A DNA stretch of 30,344 bases, taken from Spirogloea muscicola. Lineage: Eukaryota > Streptophyta > Zygnematophyceae > Spirogloeales > Spirogloeaceae. The translations under genes were made by a program, and so were the position numbers. The notes beneath the pieces were generated by a model. It searched no databases. It saw only the letters and a program-made list of their open reading frames with translations, and was not told where the DNA came from. The stretch is from assembly GCA_009602725.1 (NCBI GenBank), contig WELB01000141.1, positions 364,041 through 394,384 on the forward strand. The letters run 5' to 3'. Below are positions 1 through 30,344 of this stretch, one piece after another. How positions within the stretch are numbered: position 1 is the first letter of the stretch; the number at the start of each line of letters is the position of its first letter.

Positions 1-1655
1 GGGGACATACTTCCAGGAGCATAGCCTCTCCGACCTGCGCCTGCTTAGCAGGGGTTACTGAGTGGTTAGTAGCTGCTTTGTTTTTTCTTGTGTGCTTGTC
101 ATTTCTGCTGCTTCGCCTTAGGGCTTCGCCTGGCTTCCCCCCCCCTCTTCTTGTACTCTGTTCATTCTTTTTTGGGCTGGCTGTTCCAGCCCATATTCTC
201 AATGGGCGAGCCCTTCTCCTCTCTCTCGGCGGGGGCGCCGCGAGCTGCCACGCGTAAGGGCACGGGCTCCAGGAGCGCCGGCTGGCCTCACCCCCCCGGG
301 CCGGCCCCGGGCAATATCTACGGCGCCGCGGGCAGGGCGTGGTTGCCCCGGTTAGCCCCACCTCCCCATCCCGGTCACGGTGAGCGCCCGGGTGGGGCGG
401 GCCACCGTTTAGCCCGACTGCGATAGCGGAGGTGCTGCGAACTCCCAACGGCTGCTGGCAGCACGCAGATCCCCGCGCCCGTTACCGGGGCCCTCCCAGG
501 GGTTATCCGGATGGGTCCGCGTTCGGCACCCACTCCCCCCGCTTGCCCATACGCGGCTGCCACGTGGTGACCCTGCTCTGAAGATGCGCACCTCCCGCCC
601 TGCCGCCTACCCCGTGGCGGCGCTCCCGCTCCCATTAGTACACGGTTCGCCTTTCTTCACTCGTGGGTACTCAGCCCCCCCCTCCATTCGCGGTTCCCAC
701 ATTTGCTTCCTGAAACCCCAGACCAAGACTCCGCCTTGTGTGTCCCCGTTCTTACTACTATGCCATTTGGCAAAACAATGCTTTGGCTTGGCTTGTCCTC
801 CACCTGAACCCATGCACACTGCGCACCCTTTTCTACCTCTGTCGCTCACTGTCCCCGGAAAATCTCTCCCCCACCACTGTTCTGCTTAGCCGTGGCAGCA
901 GCAGCATGCTGTCGGTTCTACCTCGAGTGGTCGCTGCAATGTCATTTCTTGTCAGAATTAGTGGTACACTCCAGTATAGTGCCTGTGGCGTAAATGCACA
1001 AAATCTCTGCCCTCAATGAGGAGCCCAAGAGTGACACTCGACGATGTCAACAAAAGGCAAGCATTTGAGTTGATGACAGCACCCACCGAGCGAGGAAGAC
1101 TCTGTACGCTGCAACCAGCGGTCACGACCCAGCGATCGAGGCCTGCACTCCCCTTCCTTTTCCCCTCCCTCTGTTGCTGACTGTATGCTGTCTCTTTGGT
1201 GCAAATGCAGAGCTTTGAGCCACTGTCAATCCTACAGATTGGCTCACATGTCCTACACATGTCCTGCAAGTACTGACATAGTCCGATATACAACCCTATA
1301 CACTCAGCTGCAAAGGTTGCAAGGTCAGAGCCACTCACACCACCATCCTGAAATCTCCTACAGCTGAAGCCCAATTGCTCGGACGTGATAATCAACACGC
1401 CATTCAAGCACTCGTCCGCTTTCCTAAGTAGATGAAGAAGAGTAGCAGGTGCACATTGCTAAAGCAATGTGGCGATCTCTATATGTGCAGTGGAGTCGTC
1501 AGTAGAGCACCAATAGTAAAGCTTCCACTGCAGCATCTCATTGCTGCTTCTCTATGTGTTCGCTTCAAAAATGTCACTGCCAATCTGCAGGCACAGTTTT
1601 ATTCATTCGCAGTGTGACAAAAACTAGCATACTCGCCCCCCCTCCCCCTCAGTCC
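1..1655. other. Repeat-derived and unassigned DNA downstream of the amidase gene
   Basis: No exon that I can recognise lies here. Positions 160-210 carry a module that recurs at 24078-24125 (a T-run followed by GGGCTGG and a small hairpin, then TCAATGGGCGAG). Positions 773-840 carry a second module resembling 11385-11441 and 23916-23981. Between them, 250-640 is very GC-rich and has no repeat match within the window. From about 900 to 1655 composition is more balanced and probably includes the 3' untranslated region of the minus-strand amidase gene. Several open frames of 60-150 codons exist but none has a recognisable motif. Confidence 0.5.
160..210 (+). repeat. Interspersed module with GGCTGG/CCAGCC hairpin
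   Basis: The first 21 bases (160-180) are identical to 24078-24098, and the match continues through the hairpin (GGGCTGGCTGTTCCAGCCC here, GGGCTGGCTTTTCCAGCCC there) and the TCAATGGGCGAG that follows. Inverted versions lie at 22231-22253 and 23561-23581. Confidence 0.8.
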
Positions 1656-4843: not shown

Positions 4844-6648
4844 ATGGGCGGCGACTACGGCGGCTCGCGCATCTACATAGGCGGCCTGCCTGCCAAGGTC
4901 ACGCAGGAGGAGGTTGAGGACATGTTCGGCAAGTACGGGCGGATTGCGCGCTGCGACTTCAAGTCGCGCCCCGAGGTGAGGATGCTCAAGAAGTCCATTT
5001 CGCCTGGGAATGCAAGCCCTGCATGCGGCACTTGTAGCCATGTAATCAATCAGATATGGCACGAGTTGGCGGCAGTGAGAGGAGGGGAGGGAAAGGGGGC
5101 GCGCCCGTGCACGGAGCTTCATAAGAATCTTTCTTGCTGCCACTTGCGAAGAGTGACGCCATTAGGGCTGCTAGGACCCTTTGCTGGGTGTAGGAGGCCA
5201 TGTTGCAGTTGCTGGCGAGGGGTACACATGTGTGTGTGCGCTGTGCCTTGCAGCAGTTCTCCTTCTGCTTTATCGAGTACGAGGACGAGAGGGATGCTGC
5301 TGATGCCATCAGGAACTTGGACGGAGCTCCCATTGCCGGGGCACGTATGCTGGTCGAGGCCTCCAAGGAACGACGCCGCGCTCCTCAATACTCCTTTGGT
5401 GGGAAACACGGCCGCGAAGACTGCCGAGCTATCGTTGGTGAGCGCAGGCGATGGAGCTGCTTGCTTTCTCTCACTTGTCTGCCTGCACCAATGCGTTACA
5501 TGGTATCATAACAATCTCTTATGATAGCTGCATGCACATGGTGTGCTTGCGTAGCAGGGCCATGCAGACATGGTTTGTCTCTCGCACATCACCTCTTGGC
5601 GCCAAAGCTCAACATCTGCTCGCATGTGTGCTCCATTGCAGATGATCTTCCACAGGGCACTTCGTGGCAGGACCTCAAGGACTTCGGACGAGAAGGTGGC
5701 CCCGTTGTGTACTCTGACGTCTTTATGGACAACCGAAGGCTGCGGGGGTGAGCCATGTTATCGAGCTGGCACCAAAGGCAACCTGTGAATCCCTTCCCTG
5801 GTCCTTTGAGCTCTCAGCAGGATCCACTGGGAACGTCACCTTCTGGCCCTCGGCATGTTGTCCGTAACTTTCCCAATGGAATGGAGAGGGTGTCCTTGGA
5901 TTGGAGACTGTCGTGTCCTTGGCCTTTCAATCCCTGCCTGCCTCCGGAAATTTTCCCCTGGTCCAAGCTAGCTGTGGGCTTTACCAGTTTCAGAGGCAAG
6001 AAGTAAGGCGCTCTCCTATAACAGCAGACTTGGCTCGCTGATTGTGCTCTGGAATAGGGGCATGGTTGGGGGGGCCAGTCGGGCTTGATCCATCCTTGCG
6101 GATGCATTGCCAAAGATTGACCTGTTGCTTAAGGGTGGATTGGGACTGAACAGGTCGGCTGCTGCAAGCTGTGTTTCTTTGTTGCTGATTAAACCGTGGT
6201 GCGCATGGGTGGCAGTGTTCTGGAATTTGAGAGCTCAGAGGCATGTCGAAGGGCTGTGAGGCGTTTGGATGGCCAGCGAATCCACGGGGCTCCGGTCTAT
6301 GTTCGGGAGGTGAGTACTGGGTTGGTACTATCTGTCCAAGCTTGTGATCTTTCGCAAGCTGTGTGGTTATGACTGTGACTTGACTGTTTGCCACCTTGAC
6401 TTATTTGTCCAGGTTTATGCTAGTAATTGTGGGCACATTATGGTGGCTTATTGGTTGGCTGTAGCAGCAGCGTCTTATGACAGCATGTGGAGGCTCTTGT
6501 ACTTTCCTTGCAGGAGCTTGACACCCGTCGCAGCAGTCGTTATTATTCACGCTCACGTTCAAGGAGTCCTCCTCGTTATGATGATCGCCGAGGCCATGAC
6601 AGCTATGACAAGTACTCATCTAGAGGAGACTATGGTGGTCGTAGCGGC

Positions 6649-7958: not shown

Positions 7959-10120
7959 TCATTCTCCCCTATACACTGGCTTCCGCTTCTCTGCAAAGGC
8001 TGCCAGTCCCTCCAGTCTGTCTCTAGTGGTCAGGACACGGGAATAGCAAGCCTCTTCCATTGCCATACCTGATGTCATGTCCATCTCCAAGCCTTTGTCT
8101 ATCGCCGTTTTTGCCATTCTTATAGCAACAGGGCCCTGCAAAATCAGGTCAACACTTTGAGTCAAGCTATAGGGGGCTGCACGTATGCTTGGACCTGCAC
8201 CAACTCCATCTTCTTTTTTGCAATACAAATCAGTCACCTAGTCCAGAATATCAGTAAGTATTGTCCTTTTGGAAGTGCTGAATCTCACAGCCAATGCTTG
8301 CCATACAGTCAATTCTGTCATTGTTGAATGCAACACATATGAAGGTGGTCAAACAAAGACTCCATGCATCCTGTCAACCTTGACCTGACATGCCCCCTTC
8401 CATCAGCACCTGAGGAATGATCTCCCTGGCAAGCTCAAGGGCTTTCTCATATGCCTGTCCACTCTCCACAAGGTGATCTATCACACCTGACCAGAAACAA
8501 AGAAACCTGCTGTAAGTTGAAGTAAGAACACACTTGTTGCTATACAATCTGTCAAACAAAATCTGTTGAATGCTGAGCCTGTTATGTGAAGCAACTACAG
8601 TACAGGCTTGACAAGTAAAATACCAGAACAAGCTAGTATCCACTAATAAAGACGAGGCTGGCAGCTGACCCAGCTTGGCAGCTCGTTCAGCAGAAATGCG
8701 ACGCCCCGTGAAGATCAGCTCTTTGGCTTGCGACCGACCAATCATGCGTGGCAAACGCTGTGTTCCACCTGCCCTGCTCTCAAGCCGGCAACCTGTGGCA
8801 GGTCAGCCGCCATCAACGTGCATCAGCAATGGACTTCATTCTTTGAGCAAAGCAAGCACAGTTGCAATCTCAGCATGACCTGCCTATTCAGGAATGCAAC
8901 AAAAGGCTTTCTACTTCTTAGGCTAACGACGCACCCTGGGATGATGGCCAGGCCTGTCTCTGGTAGGCCAAAGCTCGCTGCACCCCCTGATCGACGAGCA
9001 AGCAACAAGGTCAAAGCTCTTGTGAGTGCTGACAGTGCCAGCTTCAGCTCCCTAGTGCAGCCAAGTGTGGGTTGCTTACAGATGTCCAAGGTCATAGCAA
9101 GCCAGCTTGGACCAAGGAGCAGCTTGGCAAGTGTCATGTCCTAAGTGGCACACATTTCTTGTTCAATGTGTTCTGCACTACCTGCCACACGGAGGTCACA
9201 AGAAAGCACAAGCTCGAAGCCTCCTCCAAGAGCGGCTCCTTCGATTGACGCAATTGTGGGCATGGGAAGACGCTGCTGTCAAGAAGAGCAAAGTCTGAGT
9301 GCGCAGCATGGCATCCCCGTCTTCGAACTCGTAGCCAATTCCTGGGCCGTTCTGAGACAGAGTCAATGTGGTGAAGGGGCACTCCTATTGTACCTCAAGT
9401 GCCACAAACGTGCTCCGCAGAGCCTTCACAAATGAGTCAGCTTCGGCAGCTGTCATGCCTCTTCGCTCCTGCCAAAGCCGAGACAGCAGGGGCCCATGAC
9501 TGCCTGGCTAGTGTGTACATCGTCGTTACTGAGAGCTGACGATTGCCAAGTGCAATCAATATACAGTGGCAGTGTGCAATACCACTGATTTTAATTGCAG
9601 AGCAGCCGGCATGCTAGTCACGTTAATAGTCCGAGCAGCCCAGGTGGGAAGGAGCAAGAGACGAGACCATCGCAGCAAAGGGCAACACATTACCTTGAGG
9701 TCGGCGCCGGCGCAGAAGACGCCTGGCAGGAGGCTGCGCAGGATGACGACGCGGGCAGCCGGGTCGGCCTCGGCGGCGCCCACAGCATCCCGCAGCTGCA
9801 CCAGCAGCTCGCGCCCGATGGCGTTGCGCGCCGCCGGCCTGTCCAGGCTCCACACCACGACGCCTGCTACAGGCAAACGGCCGCAGAATGGGGAACCCAG
9901 TACGAGCAACCGTCACAGGATACCCAGAGTGCGGCTGCTGAGAGGCCAAGGAGCGGCAGCAGCAGTGGAGTCCTGCTCGAGGAGGCCCGAGCAGCACGGC
10001 CGTGCCTGAGTCGCCGTCGGCCAGTCGCTCCACGGCCAGCTCCGCGCGCGGCGGCGGCGGCGGGCCCTGCGGAGGCTGCGGCGCCTGCAGGTATGCGCNG
10101 AGGCGCGCGGGGAGCGGCAT
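7959..10120 (-). CDS. AUH: AUH-type enoyl-CoA / 3-methylglutaconyl-CoA hydratase
   Basis: Crotonase-fold hydratase; close AUH relatives hydrate 3-methylglutaconyl-CoA in leucine breakdown, usually in mitochondria. Exons: 10120-10006, 9863-9694, 9468-9394, 9272-9182 (or from 9275), 8977-8935, 8773-8670, 8486-8410, 8135-7959; 852 nt, 283 aa. Motifs in order: [120 protein letters not shown]. Glu140 and Glu157 align with the two catalytic glutamates of crotonase. Substrate is inferred from the C-terminal resemblance to AUH. The first intron needs a GC donor (TCAG/GC), the weakest junction. One N (10099) falls in codon 8 without breaking the frame. The Pro-rich N-terminus could be part of a targeting peptide; the true start may lie upstream. 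Confidence 0.9.
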
Positions 10121-10241: not shown

Positions 10242-10368
10242 GAAGCGCGGCCAGATTGACTGGTGGCTGGGAAAGGCCAGCCCAAAGGAATGGACAAGGT
10301 CTGAGGGAGCCTGAGTGCGAACGACTAGGACTAAGACATCAGCCAAGGAACGCTCAGTAACCTCTAGT
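10242..10368 (-). repeat. Interspersed repeat, inverted copy of 24142-24268
   Basis: 127 bp that match the reverse complement of 24142-24268 at roughly 90 percent by eye, including the hairpin GGCTGGGAAAGGCCAGCCC and a tail reading GACTAGGACTAAGACATCAG. Shorter matches to the hairpin half occur near 10922 and 22495. Confidence 0.85.
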
Positions 10369-10381
10369 AAGGAGATGCAGC

Positions 10382-10424
10382 CAGCCGATTTTTGTACAGC
10401 CGATTTTTTAATATCAGCAGCCGC
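10382..10424 (+). repeat. CAGCCGATT / CAGCAGCCGC motif, copy A
   Basis: A partial CAGCCGATT at 10382-10390 is followed by a full copy at 10397-10424 (CAGCCGATT, T-rich spacer, ATATCAGCAGCCGC). Related copies are at 10692-10735, 11085-11098 (half) and 30236-30279. Confidence 0.7.
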
Positions 10425-10691
10425 TTGATCTTAGTAAGGAGATGCAAGTCCAAGTAGCTAGCTGGCGGAAAGACGTCGCCCTGTTTCGGGCGTTTGTCTA
10501 TGTGCCTACAGCGGTCCCAGGCGATTGCTTTGCATCGCCGGGCTGGTCGCGCCCTTGCAGCAGCTTCTGGTCTGCGCGGCGGGATTGCTCTTCCCTCCCC
10601 TCAGCTCATCTGACTTCCTACTGCTGACACGGGGGCATTGAGGGCGCCCTGTCTGCCTAGCCTTTGGCTCCGTCATCAACACCTGTATGCA

Positions 10692-10735
10692 TCTGGCTGG
10701 CAGTTTACAGCCGATTCTTTTGTATTAGCAGCCGC
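10692..10735 (+). repeat. CAGCCGATT / CAGCAGCCGC motif, copy B
   Basis: Starts TCTGGCTGGCA, then ACAGCCGATTCTTT and TAGCAGCCGC. The same extended layout is found at 30236-30279, directly after the N at 30235. Confidence 0.7.
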
Positions 10736-11434
10736 ATTTCTTCGGGCGACGCTCGTGCAACGAGAGAGTGAGAGTGAGAGAGCAGGCGCGCAGTGGGCAT
10801 GAGATGAAAGGGGGGGGCCGATTATCGCCAACACATTGTTCAGGCTAACGCTAGTGCCAAAAGGACCGGGCTACAGGGACAAGGTCCACAGGGCCGAATG
10901 ACGCCCAAACCACACAAAGAGAGAAAGCGCGGCCACATAAACTGGTGGCTGGGAAAGGCCAGCCCAAAGGAGTGCACAAGGCTATGCAAGAAACTGCATC
11001 GAAAAGGAGCTTAGATACACCAAGTCAGCAGCCGCAAGTCATAGTAACTTGCAGCTGGAAACGAGGCACCCCAACCCTGATGATATATCAGCAGCCGCAT
11101 TCTTGACGAGACTCAGACGCAGCAAAAGTACCCTGCCCGCAAGTGCCTGCGTGAGCCTGGGCTAAGCCGGGCTAAGGTAACAATGCGATGGGGACGTTTC
11201 GTACCCACGGATGAGCACATGTAGGTCTGACAGGCTAACTCGATTTTGTTGTGCTCACTCGAGGAACCAAGGCCCATCCAGCCGTGATTCCGCCCAGCAT
11301 CCTTAGGCCCAGCGAATTGAGATGTTCACGTTGTGTGGTCCCATAGCTTGCACTCCCTTACCCTTTATACATGAGCTTTGTGTTGTGCTCGGATTGGCCT
11401 GCCTTTTGAATTCATGCGTACTGCACACCTCTCT

Positions 11435-11502
11435 CTCTTTCTGTAGTATGTTGGCTCTTTCTGTAGTATGTTGGCTCCTCAGCTCTTTCTGTAGTATGTT
11501 GG
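11435..11502 (+). repeat. 20-bp unit repeated three times
   Basis: The 20-mer CTCTTTCTGTAGTATGTTGG occurs perfectly at 11435-11454 and 11455-11474, then after an 8-bp spacer (CTCCTCAG) at 11483-11502. It lies at the end of a CT-rich repeat module. Confidence 0.95.
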
Positions 11503-12550
11503 CTGCTCCTCAGCGAGGCTGTTCTCATGCTCCGCCTGCTGGCGCCTTCGGGCGCCACCAACCACTGAGCGTGCCGTTTGGCTGGCTAGGGGGCAGCCAT
11601 GGTGCTCCTCGCTGAGCAGCTGCATTCATTTTCAATGAAAGACTCTGCTGCTTCCTGTGCTCCCTTAGCCAACACTGAGCCGCTCGCCCCCTACTGTGCA
11701 CTGGCCCTCGCTGCAGCCACATACCCTCTGCCTGCCTTGCCCATCCTCTACCGCAAGCCGTTCTACTGCAGGAGAACTAAGCAACAGCTTTTTAATGTAG
11801 GATTGGCCTGCCGTAGCCTGCTCTCCTCTAGCCGCCTGTTTCTGGCCGCAGCTTTTAGCATTCCATCGCGGCACAGCTACCGCTTTACTTAGGCATCCAC
11901 CAGCCTTTGACATCGTCTTCAAAAGAACCCCACTCTGATGCTCCGCTGATGTCCCTCGAACCAGCATGCCAGCCCGGCTGCCCAAGCAGGTCTGCAAGCA
12001 TGCCTGACAGCGGCCGACTCCCAAGCCCCCAGCCCTCGAGAGACACCCATGCCTTGCTGTGTCCTGCACACTCTCTGCAGTATCTTGCTGCTTGTCATTC
12101 TTGTGCATCGACACCAATTGCCATGCTCTTCAGCTGAGCTGCCAGTAAATCACCAAGGCTCTCTTGGCAGCTACAAGTAGGGCTGTTGGCGCTCTCAGCA
12201 AAGGCCACTACTTCAAAATGCAGCCCTCAAGTCCGCGTGCAGATGTGCTGCGTTTGATACTGAGCGAAGGGTGCCAGGCTGTGCAGTGCGCATTGAGAGA
12301 GGAGCTGTTCAGCTAATGACTGCCAGAAGCTTGGGGTTGGACGAGCTCAGCAAGAAATGGATTGGGACGCAGGCCTGCAAGTTGAAAGCAGCAGCCACTG
12401 CATCGCCAGGAGAGGGCTTGAGCTCCCTGAGCCCCAGAGCTCCAGCAAGACTAGCCTGGCGCAGGCAGCTTTGTCTGACGCCGCCAGCCTCAGGGCAGCC
12501 GCCTGCTCCGGTCAAGGAGGTGCAAGCTGGGCTAGGGCTGGGGCAGAGGT

Positions 12551-13222: not shown

Positions 13223-14443
<1,221 letters not shown>

Positions 14444-14911: not shown

Positions 14912-15938
14912 CTACTTGACGTGATTGATGAGCTCCCCAATACCCTCAATGAGAATGCGCACTGTGTCTCCTGGGACAAGGTGTCGTGGGGGGTTGAACC
15001 CAGACCCAACTCCTGCATTTGCAGCTGCAATTTCAGTATGAGCTGGAACATGGAGGGCGCTCAGCAAGTCATCTCGCTGGGTGGAATGTCTACGCATAGC
15101 AGTTGCATCAACGACGCAGAAAGTTGCAGACTCTCAGCCTTCTGCACTGATGCACGTCTTGCGACCTGTTAACAGAATGACTGACAAGCCAATATGAGCC
15201 AGGAATGCTTGTGTGGCCCTACCCCACCTGTCATATATGTGCCAGATAAATTGTATTTAATCTGTGCTAGTTAAACCAGCAAATTGCTACGGAGACCTGT
15301 GGAGCTTCCACCTGAGGGAGTGCCTGTGGCAATGATGTCACCAGGGTGCAGGGTCATGGTAGCAGAAATAGCCTCGATGATCTTAGCTATACTGAAGATC
15401 ATATTAGAAGTCCGCCCATCCTGCCAAGGCCAGCCTCCGAATATTAGTTCAAGCCATCAGAGATATACAAGGAGGCCACTCTATTTTTGAATAATTTAAG
15501 GAGCTGTCTTTGGGATAAAAAGGCAGTGCCCATTTTGCAGCTGGAAATGCACAAGCACCTGACGCGGTTCATCATTCACCCAGCACTGGATGCGGAGGTC
15601 GCTGGCGTCCAGGTCAGAAGCTGGCACGATCCACGGACCCATGGGGCAAAACGTGTCACAGCTCTTACCAATGAACCACTGCCACAGTAGAGCCATATGA
15701 GGATATCGTAAGCATAGCAATATCTCCAGTTGGTGCCCAATCGGCCTGCTTGAGCTCTGGAGCTCTGGAGTATGTGAGTTGAACGAGGACTGCCCTCTCC
15801 AGAAGCCAGTGCTCGACACAAAAGAGAGACCATCATCTGAAGTGATAAATGGTCGAGGTTGAAAGCATTTGTTGGATACAGACCTGCTGGTGTTTCTTCT
15901 GAAGGTCCCTGGCAGTGACATCGTTAAGCACTGTGTAC
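14912..15938 (-). CDS. Fumarylacetoacetate-hydrolase family protein (FAHD2-like), C-terminal part only
   Basis: FAH-fold metal-dependent hydrolases act on acylpyruvates, oxaloacetate or related keto acids; which substrate applies here is unknown. Four exons are clear: 15938-15884, 15678-15559, 15420-15312, 15012-14912, with phases closing to the TAG at 14912. They encode [13 protein letters not shown], then [15 protein letters not shown] and [13 protein letters not shown], then [18 protein letters not shown] with [13 protein letters not shown], and finally [18 protein letters not shown] and ELINHVK. This is the second half of the fold. The N-terminal blocks (GLNYxxH and the E-x-E metal-binding motif) should lie upstream, but I find none in any minus frame between 15939 and 17500. 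The first exon needs an upstream exon ending in phase 2. An N at 16072 may mark a lost segment or misjoin, otherwise the copy is truncated. Confidence 0.85.
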
Positions 15939-16100
15939 CTGTGACAATGGCAATCCAACTTATTTGCAAGGCAGCTGGGCAGTAGAGAGAAAGCATTGTC
16001 TGGATGAGAGGCTGTGGAGACTAGCCAAGTATGTGCAGAGCAAGACAGAACTGTGCGGAAAGAGCTCTCTNGGGCCCGCCGCGCCTCCCGCCGCCGCCGC

Positions 16101-20500: not shown

Positions 20501-20896
20501 TCCCGGAAAATTTTTCCTGAGCACAGAGTACGACGCGACCAGCAGGCAAGCCTAGGCCACAGCTGGCCGACGAGGACATGGAATGAGGATCAAAAGGCAG
20601 AGGTGAGAGCTCGGAGCCTGCCTTAGCTGCTTGGTGAGACAAAGCTGATGATGCCCTGCAACTTGTCAAGCAGGGCGACGAGGTGGAGGCGGAGGGGGGG
20701 GGGAAAGCTCACCGTTGGCCTTGAGTGCTGCGAGCTGGGAGCGCGGGTGCGTGGTGATGTAGTACGTCAGGTCCTGGGCGTGCAGGCCGTCGAAGGTGAG
20801 CAGCAACACCTGCTTGATGGTGGCGGCGGCCGCGGTGTGTGCCAGCACCAGAGCCAGCACCAGCGCGACGGCGGCGGCCGCTGCGGGATGCGCCAT
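17512..20896 (-). CDS. Secreted type I phosphodiesterase/nucleotide pyrophosphatase-like protein
   Basis: Alkaline-phosphatase-superfamily hydrolase expected to cleave phosphodiester or phosphate-ester bonds outside the cell or in a vacuole. Eight exons: 20896-20713, 20316-20135, 19857-19768, 19466-19239, 18900-18697, 18479-18345, 18105-17953, 17790-17512; 1455 nt, 484 aa. Residues 1 to about 25 form a signal peptide (MAHP then an Ala/Val/Leu core). Metal-site Asp36 is in LLLTFDGLHAQD; the nucleophile position is Ser76 in PSDSFPGLL; then TGGSPRSHGVYYD, DKHPAYDIVNGPSGKGVDDL, AKHGQSP (His310), ADDIALIWL, and EHGGFSLDDVNTGLLMSNP (His420). This layout is typical of the bacterial and fungal branch. 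Substrate unknown. Phases close at every junction, several being phase 0. No GPI or membrane tail is seen; the protein ends STPTLPGF. Confidence 0.92.
18598..18627. repeat. Perfect 14-bp-arm palindrome in an intron
   Basis: CACCGAAGTACTTG, a 2-nt CA centre, then CAAGTACTTCGGTG, an exact inverted repeat. A further partial copy (GTACTTCAGTACTTCGG) follows at 18627-18643. It is in the phosphodiesterase intron between exons 18900-18697 and 18479-18345. Confidence 0.95.
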
Positions 20897-21358
20897 GGCG
20901 GCGGCGGGGGGGGGCGGGCCGGGCCGGAGCGGGGGGAGCGAGCTGGTCCGCGCGGGAGTGTTCCGGAGACGTGGCGACAATAATGCAAGTACCAAGGGCA
21001 AGCAGAGCTACGGACTTGGGCCGCCTTCGAGTGGAATGGGTGGGGGGGTTAGCGGCGGCGCGGTTTGACCGCCTCTCGTCCGAGGGATGGGTGACCGTTG
21101 CCGCCAGTCGCCGGAGAGTGGGGAAGGGCTGTGGGAAGCCATCCAAAGGGGGTGAGGGCTGTGGAAAGCCAGCCCGAAAGCAATGCTCAGATGCCTCAAG
21201 GTCCGAAGGGGCCCAAGAAGAAAGGACGCTTCCAGGAGGGCGGTGGCTCGGAGAGACCAGCCCAGGAGAAAGAATTAACAAAATCCGAAGGAAAGAGAAG
21301 ACGAGAAAGATGGGGGAGCGCAGTGCTGCCGAGCGCCAGCGCCGCGGGCGCCTTCGGG

Positions 21359-21420
21359 GAATGCGTGTGTATTAAGAGATGGGGAGGCCATGTGTGGCCA
21401 AGTACAAAGGTAAGCACATC
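21359..21420 (+). repeat. Partial copy of the 120-bp tandem unit
   Basis: GAATGCGTGTGTATTAAGAG, then GATGGGGAGGCCATGTG and GGCCAAGTACAAAGG match the start of the tandem units at 24443 and 24563. It diverges after AAGCACAT. Confidence 0.75.
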
Positions 21421-21468
21421 TTCCCGCTTCGGGGAGGAAGCGGGAAGAAGCAGCTCCTCCACAAGAGA

Positions 21469-21562
21469 GAGAGAAGGCGTGCGGGGCGCATGAAATGAAA
21501 GGGAGGCCAATTCAAGCCAGTACATTGTTCAGGCGAAGGCTACTGCAGACTAAACAAGGCTA
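21469..21562 (-). repeat. About 95-bp module, inverted relative to 23885-23981
   Basis: Shares GCGCATGAAATGAAAGGGAG, CCAATTCAAGCCA and the end ACAAGGCTA with the reverse complement of 23885-23981. A weaker copy is at about 10780-10850. Confidence 0.75.
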
Positions 21563-22259
21563 AATATACCTAAAGTAAGAGAAGTGGCACTCCCAATGGG
21601 GGCAAGGGCTGCGAAAAAATTAAGGTGCCTAAGGTGACATCAATACCCACGGGTGAGCACAAGACGCTTCCACGAGAGGGCGGTGGCTGTGATTTTCGAA
21701 GGCTGCGAAGCCAGTCCAGTGAAAAGCCAGTCCACAAAAGAAGAGCGGCCGGCCACTCCACACCCCGGCCCGAGCGGGCGGGCAGGTCCGTACTCGCGCG
21801 GCCGCATCTCGGGAAGGGGGAGGGGCGGGAGTGGGGCCGTGCCGGCGGCAGAGATGCGGTTGGCTCAGCGCAGCGCCTCATCCGCAGGCCCGGAATCTTT
21901 TCATCCCCCTCCTCCGATTGGGCCCAGCTCCCCTCCTTCGCAAGAAGGCCACCTTGGCGCGGCCCGCCGCTCCACGCGGCAGACGCACAGCCGCCGTTGT
22001 TCTTTGCCTCCCGCCAGGTCACGGTGCGCGCCAACCCGCTCCAGCTGGCCACACGGTGCGCAGTCAATGGCCACATGCATCGTCGTTTGGGCTCCTCCTT
22101 CCTCGGCCCTTTACAGACCTTGTACTGTATATTCCTTTGGACCAGCCCCTCTCACAGCCACTGCCAAAAATCGGATGAAGCCTTTGTTTGGGCTAACGAG
22201 AGAGAGGAGACGGGCTGTGGCTAGGAGAGGCCAGCCCATAAATAAGAATGAACAAAGGG

Positions 22260-22440
22260 TCGATGGGGTCAAGGCTGACTATAGCAGCCATCGCCCCCTC
22301 TGAAACCCCCCTGTTGTTCTGGAAGAGCTACTTCCTTCCCGGACGAATGAAAGTGGCTCTCTCAAAGAAAGAAAAGAGAGAAGACAAGAAGACACTTCCC
22401 AGTAGAGGGCGATGGTGTAATTTGGGCAGCCCAGAAAAAG
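22260..22440 (+). repeat. Repeat unit paralogous to 23831-24078 (without internal insert)
   Basis: Matches 23831-23884 and 23982-24078 (CAGCCATCGCCCCCTCTGAA, CTGTTGTTCTGGA, AGAGCTACTTCCT, GAATGAAAGTG, TCTCTCAAAGAAAGAAAA, AGTAGAGGGCGATGGTGT), but lacks the 97 bp present in the other copy. Confidence 0.85.
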
Positions 22441-22548
22441 AAGAAAAACCCTTCCAGGAAGGACGATGGCTGTTATTGGCCAGCCCAGAGAGGAAGCGCG
22501 GCCGAATTGACTGGTGGCTGGGAGAAGCCAGCCCAAAAGGAATGGGCC

Positions 22549-22874
22549 CAGAGAGAGATAAAACCAAGTTCGGAAGGGGCCAGGAACGCGTTAAAAGCAC
22601 ACACGGACTCAAGTGGCGGGTGGGTGGAGCCGCCGGAGCTCCCGGAGCTTCCCATCTGTTGGGTGGCAGCGCCTAAGCTTACGCGCCACCGTCCACTGGG
22701 GCCCCACTCTTCTGCTGCTGCAGCAGCGGTCCGCCACCGTCAGTCTCCTGGGCTAATACGCAGGACAAGCGTAGGACAAGCGCTATTTAAGTTCGGTCCA
22801 TGGCCCACGCCTTGCATCTCAGTGCTGGCCGTGCTCTAGCTGCAGCCTGTGGCTCTCGTCAAGGGGACTGCTTT
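22549..22874 (+). repeat. Direct repeat, left copy (uninterrupted)
   Basis: Matches 24355-24430 plus 24704-24947. Its second part, 22629-22874, is about 90 percent identical by eye to 24704-24947, with shared blocks CTTCCCATCTGTTGGGTGGC, GCGCCTAAGCTTACGCGCCA and CATGGCCCACGCCTTGCATC. Confidence 0.9.
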
Positions 22875-23560
22875 CCGGCGGCTGGTCTTTCTGACTTGCT
22901 ACTGCTGACTAGAGGTCACTACCTGATTATCTAAGTTGATCAGCCTCGGGTCACAGCCCTCGCGACCCTGTACGCCTGTCCCTTGAGACCCCACCAATTG
23001 CATCTCATGCCATCTCAGCCGCCCACCTCCCCATTCTTTGCACTAGTCTTCTTGCCTGAACAGTGCAACGGCTCGGCCTGGCTTTCCTTCCGTTTCGTGC
23101 GCACTGGTCCCTATCTCTTGCTTATCGCATGAGTTACTAGAATCTAGAGAGGAGGCCCGTGATGCGAATGAATTGAAGGAAGAAGAAGCTCTTCCAAATG
23201 AGGTGATGGCTGTCGAAGGCCAGCTCAATAGGAGTGGACAAGGGCCACAGGAGTCTATTGTCCTCCCTCATCAGCAGCTTCCGCATCCTCATTAACAGGC
23301 TGCAAGTGATGAGTAGTGAGATGGCGTCGCCCAGGCGAGCCCCAGTCTGTGCCTTTGACCTTCTGAAGATTGCCGCGTTCTCTAGATGGTCTTACCCCGT
23401 CTTGGTAGCTTGGACTTTACTATCGATGCGTCCTTACGAGCTGCCCGATACTAATGGTTGACGTCCATTGACAGTAGTCGAACTTTTTGACAAGCTCCTC
23501 GGCTCTTGCCATTCTGCATTCACCTNGCGCGGGCGCCCCAACGGTCCAAAGAGAGAGAGG

Positions 23561-24098
23561 CCAGCCCGAAAAAGAATGAACAGAGTACGAGAAGGGGGCC
23601 AGGGGAAGCGCTAAGACTCAAAGCGCGCCCTGCACGTTGATGAAGAGCCAATTGCGAGCGCTGCAAACTAAGTGAGAGCCGCATTCTATACTATGCAACT
23701 AAGGCCTGCGGAATGCTGGAGTGGCCCAAGCTTGCCCCCCGACTTCGACGACGCGCATCAACCAGCCGGGCCAGATGCTGGATTAGGGAGGACCATTTTA
23801 CGCCGTAGCCAAAAGGAAAAAGGCTGGGCTTAGGGCTGACTGTAGCAGCCATCGCCCCCTCTGAAACCCCTCTGTTGTTCTGGATGTAGCCTTGTTACTT
23901 TGCACTAGACTCTGTCTAAACAACGTATTGGCTTGAATTGGCCTCCCTTTCATTTCATGCGCTCCGCGCGCTCTCTCAGGAAGAGCTACTTCCTCCAGGA
24001 CGAATGAAAGTGACTCTCTCAAAGAAAGAAAAACGAGAAAACTTAAAGAAGGCACTGCCAGTAGAGGGCGATGGTGTGTTCATTCTTTTTTGGGCTGG
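23561..24098. mobile_element. Candidate small element bounded by inverted 21-bp ends
   Basis: Left end 23561-23581 (CCAGCCCGAAAAAGAATGAA and one more base) is the inverted complement of 24078-24098 with one mismatch in 21. The interval is about 540 bp with no coding capacity. Both ends lie inside the general hairpin module, so this may be two independent opposed copies and not a transposon. An N is at 23526, outside the left end. Confidence 0.4.
23885..23981 (+). mobile_element. 97-bp insertion relative to the paralogous copy at 22260-22440
   Basis: The paralogous copy reads TTCTGGAAGAGCTAC; here TTCTGGA is followed by 97 bp and only then AGAGCTAC. The insert runs TGTAGCC to CTCTCTCA and is flanked by GGA on both sides, as a 3-bp target duplication would give. 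An inverted relative is at 21469-21562 and weaker ones at 773-840, 10780-10850 and 11385-11441. Confidence 0.65.
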
Positions 24099-24141
24099 CT
24101 TTTCCAGCCCCTATCCTCAATGGGCGAGCACTTTCTTGCTG

Positions 24142-24268
24142 ACTAGAGGTTACTGGGCGTTCCCTGGCTGATGTCTTAGTCCTAGTCCATCGTACTCCGG
24201 CTCCTTCAGACCTTGTCCATTCCCTTGGGCTGGCCTTTCCCAGCCACCAGTCAATCTGGCCGCGCTTC
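24142..24268 (+). repeat. Interspersed repeat, inverted copy of 10242-10368
   Basis: See 10242-10368. It starts ACTAGAGGTTACTGGGCG, contains GGGCTGGCCTTTCCCAGCC and ends near GGCCGCGCTTC. Confidence 0.85.
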
Positions 24269-24442
24269 CTGCTTTCTTGATGGTGTGATTGGGCAGCCCA
24301 GAGAGAAGAAAGACCCTTCCAGGAAGGACGATGGCTGTCATTGGCCACCCCAGAAAGAGATGAAACCAAGTTCGAAAAGGGCCAGAAAAGCGTTAAAAGC
24401 ACACAGGGACTCAAGTGGCGGGTCGGAGGAGGAGCCGTCGGA

Positions 24443-24683
24443 ATGCGTGTGTATTAAGAAACGGGGGGCCTTGTGTCGCCAAGTACAAAGGCAAGCACAT
24501 TGACAAATGTACGTCACCTGCTGCTAAGCTGACCCGCTCAGTAACCACGAGTCAGCACATAGAAAACGTGTGTTTTAAGGGATGGGGAGGCCATGTGGCC
24601 AAGTGCAAAGGCAAGCACATTGACAAATGTACGTCACCTGCTGCTAAGCTGACCCGCTCAGTAACCACGAGTCAGCACATAGA
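24443..24683 (+). repeat. 120-bp tandem repeat, two copies
   Basis: Copies 24443-24562 and 24563-24683. From CAAAGGCAAGCACATTGAC to CACGAGTCAGCACATAGA the copies are identical at an exact 120-bp spacing (24486 versus 24606); the first 40 bp of each unit are more diverged. As 120 is a multiple of three, one plus frame (24415-24696) stays open through both copies, repeating CKGKHIDKCTSPAAKLTRSV or near variants. I do not call it a gene. Confidence 0.95.
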
Positions 24684-24703
24684 GGTCGCTAACTGATGCT
24701 CGA

Positions 24704-24947
24704 GCCGCCGGAGCTCTTGGAGCTTCCCATCTGTTGGGTGGCAGCGCCTAAGCTTACGCGCCACCATCCACTGGGGCCCCACTCTTCTGCTGCTGCAGCA
24801 GTCCACCACCGTTAGCCTCGTGGGCTGATACATAGAACTAAGTGTAGGACAAGCGCTGTTTAAGTTCAGTCCATGGCCCACGCCTTGCATCTCAGTGCTG
24901 GCCGTGATCTAGCTGCAGCCTGTGGCTCTCGTCAAGGGGACTGCTTT
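24704..24947 (+). repeat. Direct repeat, right copy (second part)
   Basis: About 90 percent identical to 22629-22874. It is separated from its first part (24355-24430) by some 270 bp holding the 120-bp tandem array, which the left copy lacks. Confidence 0.9.
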
Positions 24948-25404
24948 ATACAAAACGCATCACCAAGACTTAGTAGATTTAATGTTACGAAAATAAGTAA
25001 TATCTACTCCAGCGACTACTCAATCTCAAAGTCTTGAAACAGTTTTCAAACAAGAAGAAGAAGATCTTGGATGAAAGTCATGATTCTAAGCTGCAGTTGC
25101 TAAAGCAGGGGCCTGCTCGGCCAAGCAAATTTGTTCTGCAAGGAACCCAGTCTCAGTCATATCTGCCGTTCTGTAAGACCAAGTGACACTTTGACATTGC
25201 TGTTCAACGTCATACTAGATCAGCCGAGCCACAACATCCTTACGGACATACTTATTAGCATTGAAATGCCGCCAAGAAGCGACATTCATCAAGCTGAGGT
25301 GTCAACGCATTGGCAAAGCAATAAGACTGGTCGATATCACCACAACGCATGCATCGCAATTGCAGGGGATGGTGAAGCTTGGAGAGTGCACTTGATCACT
25401 GTCC

Positions 25405-28400
25405 TTAAGCTGTAAAGCCCACAATCCATGTCCTAGAGGTCGACCTTCTATCTGAGTATAGGTGCTCATTAGCTACTTGCTTCTTACAATCTGAAGCAGC
25501 AAGCACCTCTGCAATCTTGTGCTCCCCTGCAGCTGGAGTGGTACTTGGGTGGTTTGCATGATACTTGTCCTGACAATATGACGTGATGGCCATGAGATTG
25601 CGGCACTTTGCAGCATGATAACCCTCCATGCATGGATGTACATCAGATTTGACAAGAGCTGGCCGGACAAAGGTGGCACGTAAAGTGAACCTGGTAGTGC
25701 GCAAGGAGGTCGCCGTATCGCCGTATCGGAGAACTGAACTGTACATAGCCAGGTAGACCTAGAGAAGAGTGTACAATGGGTCCTTTGGCGGTGACCTCAC
25801 TTTTGGTCATGCAACTCCGCAGCAGGACGCTCTTGCAGGGGCCATCTGGAACACCTTCTAAGTCAATGTCATCTGGAAGCTTTGGCTGCTGCTGGCCCCT
25901 GTATCAGGGGCAAAGGGCTTCAGCTCCTTGACTCAAGATACCATCAACATTGATGCTAGCACTATTGTAAGCATACTACAGTGTCTGATCCATGTCTGAG
26001 CCTGCATACAATCTTCGCATGTACAGCACACATAGGGACATTGCCAACTGACCTGTAAGGCAACGGGAGCCCTCTTTGACGTCCAAATTCAGCTATGGCA
26101 CTTCCGCAAAGAATCATCATTTCCGAGACGAGCATCCTTGCCATTGAGACATTGTCATTCAAGATAATCTTGACTGGTGGATGATCCTTGTCTGCATTCT
26201 CCACCTTGATGTCCACTTCTGGCATGTGTAGCTCTATTGCACCCTATTGCACATACTACAAGCAGATGTCATGATGAGTTTCAGCCATGAACACCTCTAA
26301 ATCCCTTTTGTGCCTGAAGAGGACTATCTGAATAGCACCGTCCATGCAATACAAGTGCATACCTGTGATACTCGCCAACTACGTCGGAGCCTTGCAGCTT
26401 CGGCAAGCAATGAGAGCTCAGGCTCCTCCTTCACATCTAAAGCCAGTATCTCTTCGACATCCTCATACGACAGCCTGTACGTCGGCTTCACTTCGGAATT
26501 CAACACCTCCCATTGTATCAAACTGCCACACGTACAAGAAGGATACGTGCTGCTGAGGCAACCACGCTACATGGGTAGCAAGCTTCCAGCTCCCTTTCTC
26601 AACCAGCCTCAGCAAGCCTGAGTATCTACACTTCTTGACACCATTGGCGGGGCTTTGTCTAAATGTGTGCCTCTGCTACGGAGCACTGCAACATGACAAT
26701 GGCTGTGCACACGAAAGCTTTACATTTGTACTAGACCTGCCATCGTGGTCGAGGGTGGCGCTGATACTCATGGCATGGCATGAGCTGCCTTGTCTCAGGC
26801 TCATAGGACCTGATGCCAGGTGCATTGGAAACATCGGTAAAACTCCTGTGGCCAGGTAGACTGAAGTTGACCTATGCCGAGCTTCCCTGTCACAACACAG
26901 GACGCTGTCATGAATGAGCCGATGGTACTCCTCCACCAATTAAAGTAATGGAATCTATATACGAGTGTGCCCGTAATCTCAGTCTCAAGGGTTGATTTGC
27001 GACGCCGATCACCTACTTGATAAAACGACCCGTACTTAACGCCTTGAGCAGTCTGATTTTAGAAGTTGCGCACGCAAAACACTCACAGGTCAAGCACGTC
27101 ATTGGGCACCACAAAACGAGCAGGATCTGCAACATGGATCCACACCCGCAAGCGACCATCTTCTAGCCTCTGTATACTGAGGCCGTCATCAATCTGCATA
27201 TGCAAACAGCACAAGTGAATAAGTAGCTCCGAGGTAACGTGCTCGATGCAGATCCAAGCCGTCAACTTTGTCATCATACCTCCTCAGTATCTTCAGAGTC
27301 GATGGTGTAGATTTTGAAATCTGAAAGGTCTACACGCAAACCCTGCACAGTTGCAATGAAAGAAAGTGACAATCATATAATGCCCTAGTGACATGAAGTA
27401 TTAGGATACTGTCTATCAGATGTCCATATGTCCCCTATGCATGCCGACTACATTATTAATATGGCAAAGCTGAGCATGTGGTCCACGACTGAGGTGGGGC
27501 CAACCTCATCAGGGTCCAACGTGTGCAAGCAGTCTGCTGTGGCAGTTTCAACAGCTGGAGAGAAAGTTTGAGGAAGTGAAGATCTGAGGAGAGAGCTGTT
27601 GATGTGGTAAGGGACAAGCCCCATCCTTATTAGCAGCTCGAGAGCTGCAGATTGTTGTCTAGCCACTCCCAAGACTTCTAATGACTGTCAAGCCAGGTTT
27701 CAAACAAGCCAGATGTCAGGGAATGTGCACAGCAGTTCTCTATCTTCTAGCTTAAAGAAGCAGCAAATGTGTAGTCTCTGTGAGAATCTCTTCAGAAGGA
27801 ATTCTATGTGTGGTCTTTTTTACAATGTGTAGCATTTCCTTCTCAAGGCTTTGTGTCAGATACCCTCCAAACCAAGCCCAGCAGTTAAGCAACTATCTGA
27901 GCGGCCTCATGCTTACAGCTTCAGCGAGCTTCTTCTGACCATCAGAAGACAGTAGATCCAGAGAGTAAGCCTTGATGGCTTCAAGCCTCTGCCACTGAGC
28001 CTCATACTCTCTCCAGCTGCTGGCAAGAGGCTTCTGAGCTCCTCTGAGATGGATGGCAGTCCGAGCAGCCGTGACAAATGCCTCCAGCTCCTTCACCTGT
28101 GCCTCCTTGGCTTTGACTTCCAATCTCAATTCTTCTACCTGCTCAGACAGTACATGAGGAACTATGGAAGGTGAGGAGCAAGCATGACTTCTCTGAAGGC
28201 TCCTATACCATGATAGATATAAGGACAAAGAATCATGGTCAGATATATAGACATAGGCTGTCACCTTAGATTCTTCCCAAAGATCGTAGATGATGGTCTG
28301 CACACTTGCCTGTGTAGGAGGTCGAGGCTCAAAAGACACAACCCCTTCCTTGTCCATCCTCTTTTTCTTAAAGTAGATGCGATCAGTTGCAAGCAACCTG

Positions 28401-30201
28401 TGGGCAGAGTAGCACTCCACTGGGCCATTCCCCATGAATAACAGCTGCAATAGCATCAATAGTCCAGTCAACAAAGCCTCACAGCTGCCTCGGAGTAATG
28501 CACAAGTTTGTCCTCACACCAATGTCGGACACAGCTCGTTGTTGACACTGTTCCACATCAGTGCAACTTGCCTTTCCTTACTGCTAGCTTATTAAAAGCA
28601 GCTACATATCGTTGCAATGTTTACCTCTGCAAGTTCCTCAGCCTGGACAACCGGCTTCTCATTCACCAACTCCTCCCAGGCCAGCTCCAGCAAAGTGGGG
28701 TCCTGACCAGCAGGAAGGAGAGGTGCTCCTTGAATGAGAAACTTCATCAGTCACAGATCGCGAGGGCTTAGAGCCCTCAACATTCCTGAAATGTGAGAAA
28801 CCCAGAACCCTCAACTTTCATGCATACAGCTGACCTACTTCCACAGCGAGATTTCATCTGCTTCATCTACAAAATTTGCAGTCTGACACAATGCATTGAA
28901 ACAACATTCTGCATGTGCTTCTTAGTGCTCACCAGCAATGCCTGGACCTGGTCATTGAAGTTTGCTATATCCTTCTCTGTATACTCTAGCGTGCCAGGGA
29001 TGACAAAAGTCATCTGAGAAGGCTTCACGGAGAAGCTGTTTCCAAACTGCAGTTGGACATGTAACAGATCATCAAAAGTTGGCAGAGGAAATGCATATTG
29101 TAGGCCGCGTAGGTGAGGACTATAAATCTAGAGGTCCTAGGGAGCACAGACGCAACCGTGGTGTGCATTTATTCGGATAAACAGCCGTTAGCTTTGCATA
29201 AACAATAAGGAATTGTTTGGCACAAGCATCAATCAAGGACCACCCATGCGAATGACAATCCCCAAATCTGCTCCCACTCGATCTAGCTCTAGGCACCTAA
29301 GACAATTGCTGACATTCTTTTGTGCAACCTCTGCCTGCGACTTGGTCCCAACCCAAGCCTACAAGTAGATGCAACCCCAGGTGCCAGTGCTTCGAGATGC
29401 CAGCTGATTGACTGACCTGATCTGCCGTGATCCAGTTCCTCCTCCCATCAGGCTTCTGGAGGACGCCCAGGCTAATACGGGTACTGTCCCGCTCGAACTC
29501 CACAAGCTGGCCCTTCCGTAGCTTTGACTGATTGTTGTCGCTGCTCTGGCTGCCAGCAACACTGCTTCTTGAAGCGCTGCAAAGGGGATGATAGCCACCA
29601 GCTGTCCGCATGATGGCATATAGCAAAACTTTTCGGCTGTTGCAGCCGACTAACTAACTCGCACTGATTGTATGCCAACGTAGAGTCTGAAGCGCAGCAG
29701 AATGCACGACATGAGGGGGCTGTGATGTTCTGAGGATGTTTGGGTCTTACCTTGAAGCCAAAGCCGACGGCTTTGCCCTCCCCTGCCGCCAGCTTGGCCG
29801 CTTGCAATCAACGCAGGGAAGGCCAAGGTGTCGCCAAGGAAGGGGATGGCCTCCGGGGTGCTGCCAGCAGCTGCACCTTTGCTGCCGGTCGCAGCAACCG
29901 ACGAGGCAAGCCCCCTGGCGGGTGCAGGCAGAAGCGGCGAGGCCGGGGCTGGCAGCCGCCGCCCGGCAGCTCGCCCGGCTCGCCAGGGGGGGGTCAGGTA
30001 CGCCAGGACTTGCGGACCTGGGCCAGCGGCGCTGTCCTGCGCCACCGGCTGGGCGCCGCAGTCGGCGACGGCGCCGCAGCGGAGGAGGAGCAGGCTGCGG
30101 CGGCCGGACCAGGCGCCCTGAGCCGCCGCCAAAGCTCCCGGGTCGGTTCCGCCGCCGAGCGGCAGCGCCTGCTGCGTCGCCAGGGCGGGCTGGCCAGCCA
30201 T
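25405..30201 (-). CDS. RNR1: RNase R/II-family 3'-5' exoribonuclease (organellar RNR1 type)
   Basis: RNB-domain enzyme; plant RNR1 matures rRNA and mRNA ends in chloroplasts and mitochondria. Clear exons: 29576-29417, 29046-28933, 28702-28625, 28444-28310, 28138-27917, 27684-27505, 27342-27280, 27193-27087, 26886-26737, 26522-26363, 26243-26053, 25898-25691 (about 589 aa in one phase). Signatures: KGQLVEFERD, NSFSVKPSQMTFVIPG, YTIDSEDTEEIDDGLS (active site), VWIHVADPARFV, STSVYLATGVLPMFP, MARMLVSEMMILCG, LPLPYRGQ, and YVQFSSPIRRYGDLLAHYQ. A likely further exon at about 25405-25528 encodes EHKIAEVLAASD. The intron after 28310 has a GC donor (ACAG/GCAAGT). The first exon (to 29751, GC-rich, transit-peptide-like) is uncertain: the best-looking frame leaves phase 1 while the next exon needs phase 2. 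The C-terminal S1-like end was not identified; a spliceable ORF at 25170-25086 ending EQAPALATAA is a weak candidate. Confidence 0.88.
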
Positions 30202-30204
30202 CGC

Positions 30205-30344
30205 CGCAGCCTGCGGCGACTGCGGCGGTGCTACNTCTGGCTGGCATTTCACAGCCGATTCTTTCATATCAGCAGCCGCTTTCGTTTTTCCTGCGGCGGC
30301 GGCGGCGGCGGTCCTTTCGCCCCCCGCTGCCGCCGGCTGGCGAG
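30205..30344. other. 5' flank of RNR1 with repeat motif and (CGG)n run
   Basis: After the N at 30235 the sequence is a CAGCCGATT motif copy (30236-30279), then a (CGG)n run at about 30292-30311. It may hold the RNR1 promoter, or be a separate segment if the N marks a join. Confidence 0.4.
30236..30279 (+). repeat. CAGCCGATT / CAGCAGCCGC motif, copy D
   Basis: TCTGGCTGGCA, ACAGCCGATTCTTT, ATATCAGCAGCCGC, the same order as 10692-10735, beginning at the first base after an N. Confidence 0.75.

Follow-up and report, generated by a model that had tools for sequence, protein, structure and literature searches.

The repeat-rich part of the window (the whole stretch of 30,344 nucleotides analysed here) may be a patchwork of decayed short non-autonomous interspersed elements, perhaps SINE-like, a reading to which we give about even weight. 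On this account, a hairpin-bearing family whose core measures about 65 bp would have inserted repeatedly, including into an older 0.6-kb repeat that is present twice; nested insertion, truncation and decay would have produced the mosaic order of the units, as seen in those two backbones only. Two insertions of hairpin units can be read from the sequence, each with an exact flanking duplication of 9-10 bp and an empty counterpart in the other backbone; exact duplications together with an empty counterpart are the mark of insertion. The hairpin family itself was not recognised, and its kind looks ordinary. The whole repeat analysis is based on this one 30-kb window.

The hairpin core was searched for as GGCTGG and CCAGCC separated by 4-8 bases, with at most two substitutions. 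Between 20897 and 24950 it formed 13 clusters, against a mean of 2.9 and a maximum of 11 in 200 shuffles. The whole window held 37 clusters, against a mean of 18.3 and a maximum of 25 in 50 shuffles, so about half of these loose matches are expected by chance. A core profile was built from 13 copies that we picked among 25 candidate sites and oriented by hand, the other 12 being weaker, overlapping or differently built; the profile therefore depends on our selection. It gave 19 matches in the window at E≤1, 15 of them at E≤0.02, and none in the reversed window. Since the 13 copies had built the model, a leave-group-out search, in which close relatives were withheld in turn, is a better test than the plain profile search. 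All 13 withheld copies scored 9.6-25.7 bits (the weakest, c183, with E=0.029), and the best matches in 10 shuffled windows scored 6.3-8.2 bits, below every one of them. Because each withheld copy outscored the shuffled windows, the hairpin-bearing units are homologous to one another; cluster enrichment, the empty reversed window and the leave-group-out scores rule out chance hairpins as an explanation. The recurring core described in the sequence-only reading is thus real. Of the roughly 15 sites listed there, 14 were recovered by the profile (the 13 model copies, and the site at 23555 by its right half only); the copy near 22147, whose right arm reads GGCTGG in place of CCAGCC, was not.

The family core of about 65 bp consists of a left flank, a GGCTG-loop-CAGCC hairpin, and then CCCAAAAGGAATGGACAAGGTCYGAAGGGGCC or a decayed form of it. 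With the 25 candidate sites oriented by hand, about half have CCAGCCCAAAAGGAATGGACAAGGTCYGAAGGGGCC, intact or decayed, as a common right flank; the left flanks fall into several classes (GCGCGGCCAGATTGACTGGT, CTTCCAGGAAGGACGA, CTCGCCCATTGAGAATATG and others). The 3' end is not fixed; in the copies near 183 and 23555 the common sequence continues past GAATGAACA. Four of the 13 model copies (183, 13881, 24101 and 24237) lie on the minus strand. This part of the earlier description is confirmed by the hand orientation, the profile and the leave-group-out search: the short hairpin units form a real family, lie in either orientation and have left flanks of several kinds.

Table 1. Hairpin units, backbones and insertions located in the window
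Feature	Position	Strand	Basis
Hairpin unit c183	149..214	-	profile match
Hairpin unit c10274	10243..10319	+	profile match, self-comparison
Mini-insert, 52 bp	10380..10431		self-comparison, flank test
Hairpin unit c10956	10925..10992	+	profile match
Hairpin unit c13881	13840..13912	-	profile match
Hairpin unit c21166	21137..21207	+	profile match
Hairpin unit c21254	21223..21290	+	profile match
Weaker hairpin-unit match, outside model	21662..21727	+	profile, 14.6 bits
Hairpin unit c22228	22210..22265	+	profile match
Backbone copy 1, about 0.6 kb	22264..22874	+	alignment with copy 2
Hairpin unit c22477, within backbone copy 1	22446..22494	+	profile match
53-bp hairpin-module insertion in backbone copy 1, contains c22525	22493..22545	+	flank repeats; missing from copy 2
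Hairpin unit c23217	23186..23259	+	profile match
Hairpin unit, right half only	23555..23590	+	profile, 10.1 bits
Backbone copy 2, same order as copy 1 except insertions	23825..24947	+	alignment
97-bp insertion in backbone copy 2	23882..23978	-	self-comparison, alignment
200-bp insertion in backbone copy 2, two hairpin units (c24101, c24237)	24079..24278	-	alignment, flank repeats
Hairpin unit c24342, within backbone copy 2	24311..24385	+	profile match
259-bp insertion in backbone copy 2, hairpin-free	24443..24701	+	self-comparison, alignment, flank test

The sequence-only reading had also proposed a self-comparison and a multiple alignment. The former returned 27 similar segment pairs within the window, including one in which a palindrome matches itself. 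A MAFFT alignment of the 25 candidate sites was too gappy for use. The two backbones, when aligned, have a single common order once four insertions are removed. At backbone copy 1, 22809-22909 is also similar to 10527-10628 (71%). The order of units differs between the backbones because, as their alignment indicates, elements have inserted within other elements. For this pair the earlier claim of a different module order at every site fails. Five of the 15 listed sites lie in it (22470, 22517, 24093, 24228 and 24330); for the other 10, nesting is an extrapolation from the two backbones.

The 53-bp insertion lies between exact 10-bp copies of GCCCAGAGAG (22483-22492 and 22546-22555), and at the empty counterpart backbone copy 2 has CCCCAGAAAG once. 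The 200-bp insertion lies between exact 9-bp copies of GATGGTGTG (24070-24078 and 24279-24287); here backbone copy 1 has GATGGTGTA once, the ninth base of the repeat being ambiguous. Read on the minus strand, the 200-bp insertion carries its two hairpin units in direct orientation, and most of it (24139-24268) recurs at 10242-10371 with 93% identity. The 53-bp insertion matches the first of these units and has a similar A-rich GAATG string at its end. The A-rich right ends of the 53-bp and 200-bp insertions, AAAAGGAATGG and AAAAAAGAATGAA, adjoin the flank repeats; there is no true poly-A tail. Insert ends were set from the flank repeats, except for the 97-bp insert, and the alignment gaps differ from them by about 1-18 bases; the backbone alignment paired three bases by chance within the 200-bp insert.

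Flank repeats were assessed for 19 intervals with ends of our choosing, each against 300 random intervals with the same slack, and the p values are uncorrected for the 19 tests. Six of the 19 were flanked by direct repeats at p<0.02: the 53-bp insertion (p=0.007), the 200-bp insertion (p=0.017), the 52-bp mini-insert, which sits between two copies of the 15-bp TAGTAAGGAGATGCA (10365-10379 and 10432-10446; p=0.003), the interval 21361-21426, with the 9-bp repeat CTTCGGGGA (p=0.017), and two that we discounted, one as GC-triplet sequence at 30210 and one as a unit's own internal homology at 22422. The remaining 13 intervals, which include c183, c10274, c10956, c13881, c21254, c23217 and both backbones, had no flanking repeat at that level. 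Part of the mini-insert recurs near 30251 and, by eye, also near 10700. The 259-bp insertion contains two tandem copies of a unit of about 120 bp (24446-24683), and its flanks, GAGCCGTCGGA and GAGCCGCCGGA, match at 10 of 11 bp, which is not significant (p=0.086). The 97-bp insertion has relatives at 21469-21565 and 10773-10875 and no clear flanking duplication (best repeat p=0.92).

Movement of the hairpin elements would be by target-primed reverse transcription, with a LINE enzyme acting in trans; we infer this because the flank repeats differ in size (9 and 10 bp, perhaps also 15 bp), the right ends are A-rich, and no inverted ends were seen. Taken alone, the 9- and 10-bp duplications also fit a Mutator-like transposase. 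It is possible, if rather unlikely, that the units are non-autonomous DNA transposon derivatives of this type, inserted into one another, with duplications of 8-11 bp and inverted ends that were lost or never present. The repeat lengths at the two best insertions and around 21361-21426 are as such elements would leave them, and the units do occur in both orientations, but no terminal inverted repeats were seen by eye at the ends of the four inserts compared, and the 15-bp repeat at 10365/10432 would be out of range if the mini-insert is of the same kind. Nor did Pfam give a match, to a transposase or otherwise, in the 12 ORFs scanned out of 13 that overlap 20897-24950 and reach 100 amino acids (all but 20648-20983 on the plus strand).

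Quite unlikely, in our view, is an origin without any mobile element, through local duplication, recombination and templated double-strand-break repair at a fragile site formed by the hairpin. The density of units within 4 kb, the tandem units, the arm of opposite sense in the copy near 22147 and the many units lacking a flanking duplication are what it would lead one to expect; the exact duplications of 9-10 bp whose counterparts are empty, and the relatives at 183, 10274, 10956 and 13881, some 7-21 kb from the cluster, are not. Fragments of small LTR retrotransposons (TRIM-like), as solo LTRs and truncations, are no likelier a source. The 97-bp insert, on the minus strand, starts with TGAGAGAG and has GGCTACA near its end, which makes TG...CA limits possible, and the tandem 120-bp units would also suit this origin; against it, any 4-6 bp duplication at the 97-bp insert is within chance, the two hairpin-bearing inserts lack a TG start and a CA end, and an unsystematic look identified no primer-binding site or internal domain. 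That very small hairpin elements (50-200 bp) insert preferentially at the foot of their own hairpin, between CCAGCC and CAGAGAG, and so give rise to arrays that are composite and modular and carry 9-10 bp duplications, seems to us very improbable. On that reading a single CCCAGARAG string would be involved in two steps in the backbone, the 53-bp insert and, by eye only, the older unit directly to its left, where the flank repeat is equally explained by internal homology of the unit itself.

The hairpin itself was examined for signs of maintenance. Across the 13 copies, 70 of 78 stem cells (six pairs per copy) are paired; of the eight breaks, five are at the sixth pair, two at the fifth and one at the third, and no pair is altered on both sides. 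When five stretches were folded, only 130-215 on the minus strand stood out clearly in stability from its shuffled versions (z=-2.82), the other four giving z between -0.85 and +0.68. With no compensatory change and one of five stretches stabler than shuffles, a structured-RNA family or a selected hairpin is unsupported. The hairpin looks inherited rather than maintained, and most likely it is simply carried along as a passenger within the sequence of the element. The earlier interpretation, a modular non-autonomous element or a recombination-prone hairpin family, is supported in part.

Searches for a source among known RNAs and other genomes gave little. ARAGORN found no tRNA and Rfam gave no match, and an Rfam-RNA or tRNA origin of the repeats was rejected on these results. 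On the one strand searched, the 200-bp insert has no B-box-like string, and A-box-like strings appear only under loose matching. Because the parts of the repeat region that were searched showed no convincing promoter boxes, no tRNA or Rfam relation and no protein domain, we do not file the elements as SINEs; they would only work most like one. Plasmids gave no match to a 501-bp query, and an exact 26-mer was absent from genome_contigs and viral_contigs. A degenerate 21-mer matched a single stretch in genome_contigs, on a Pantoea contig, which we take as chance, and nothing in viral_contigs, where a second pattern also had no match. A bacterial, plasmid or viral origin was set aside, nothing similar having appeared in those collections beyond the Pantoea match; prokaryotic, plasmid or viral collections are not where a eukaryotic repeat should turn up. 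Helitron 3' ends (a hairpin followed by CTRR) were not seen by eye. The literature, as far as its text was available to our search, held no recognisable description of the hairpin family, an absence that does not prove it unpublished.

The window has a GC content of 54.5% and contains four single Ns. Partial Pfam matches were found to CN_hydrolase (ORF 3191-3571, minus), RRM_1 (4844-5524, plus), ECH_1 (9556-9909, minus), FAA_hydrolase (15496-15996, minus) and a ribonuclease II winged-helix domain (27893-28474, minus). Because these partial matches fall in separate ORFs that are short and resemble exons, the window is probably eukaryotic. Judged loosely by its genes, it may come from a green plant or an alga.

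If widespread in the genome, the hairpin family would add one to the families of small non-autonomous elements and would be useful as a marker of insertion history, possibly also as promoter-proximal sequence. Filled and empty sites show which insertions came before others; none of the findings suggests a new mechanism.

Among known systems, bacterial REP/REPIN repeats are likewise small hairpin units that are dispersed and lie in either orientation; here, however, the setting is read as eukaryotic and pairing is not kept by compensation. TRIM-type LTR elements share the small size and, at the 97-bp insert, possible TG...CA limits, but no LTR pair was recognised among the 27 self-comparison pairs, and no short duplication was seen. 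MITEs and non-TIR Mutator-like elements are also short, non-coding and nested, with 9-10 bp duplications comparable to those at two inserts, whereas the inverted repeat here is internal and about 6 bp long, with none seen at the termini. SINEs are short interspersed retroposons moved by LINE machinery, and 53 bp is very short for one. The present elements differ from them in that very small size, in that neither a pol III promoter nor an RNA-gene head is recognisable, in having no poly-A tail, and in a 3' end that is not fixed among the few copies available here; they share with SINEs a short, non-coding, dispersed character, both orientations, some flanking duplications of differing length and an A-rich right end.

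Repeated structures that self-comparison of the window identified within the cluster of hairpin-bearing units include a direct repeat of ~248 bp (22627-22874 and 24702-24947; 92% identity), the end of which is GGGGACTGCTTT, and a ~120-bp unit in tandem (24446-24563 and 24567-24683, 92% alike), of which 21358-21419 is a partial, shorter relative. A GACTGCTTTCCGGCTGCT string was also spotted by eye near 13735, and a separate 28-bp tandem repeat is present in two copies at 11454-11508. In one hairpin unit (22120-22160), read on the minus strand, the right arm is reversed in sense, GGGGCTGGTCC replacing GGCCAGCCC.

The motif GCTGACTAGAGGTNACT gave five matches at ≤3 mismatches, against 0.26 expected. 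It is common to repeats that otherwise differ. A 15-bp direct repeat (10365-10379 and 10432-10446) flanks one partial copy of a ~47-bp mini-repeat on both sides.

Positions of the mini-repeat and the shared motif in the window
Feature	Sequence	Positions	Strand
Mini-repeat, ~47 bp	around ACAGCCGATTCTTT...AGCAGCCGC	10692-10738, 30236-30282, 10396-10426	
Motif	GCTGACTAGAGGTNACT	22904, 24138	+
Motif	GCTGACTAGAGGTNACT	10356, 24540, 24660	-

An ORF at 15496-15996 (minus strand) matched a fumarylacetoacetate hydrolase domain (E = 4.1e-12); a Pfam scan of the ORF read over 20666-21001 returned no match. A candidate first exon, the beginning of which resembles a signal peptide (MAHPAAAAAVALVLALVLA...), lies at 20666-20896 (minus strand), and the repeat cluster may therefore be positioned in its upstream region.
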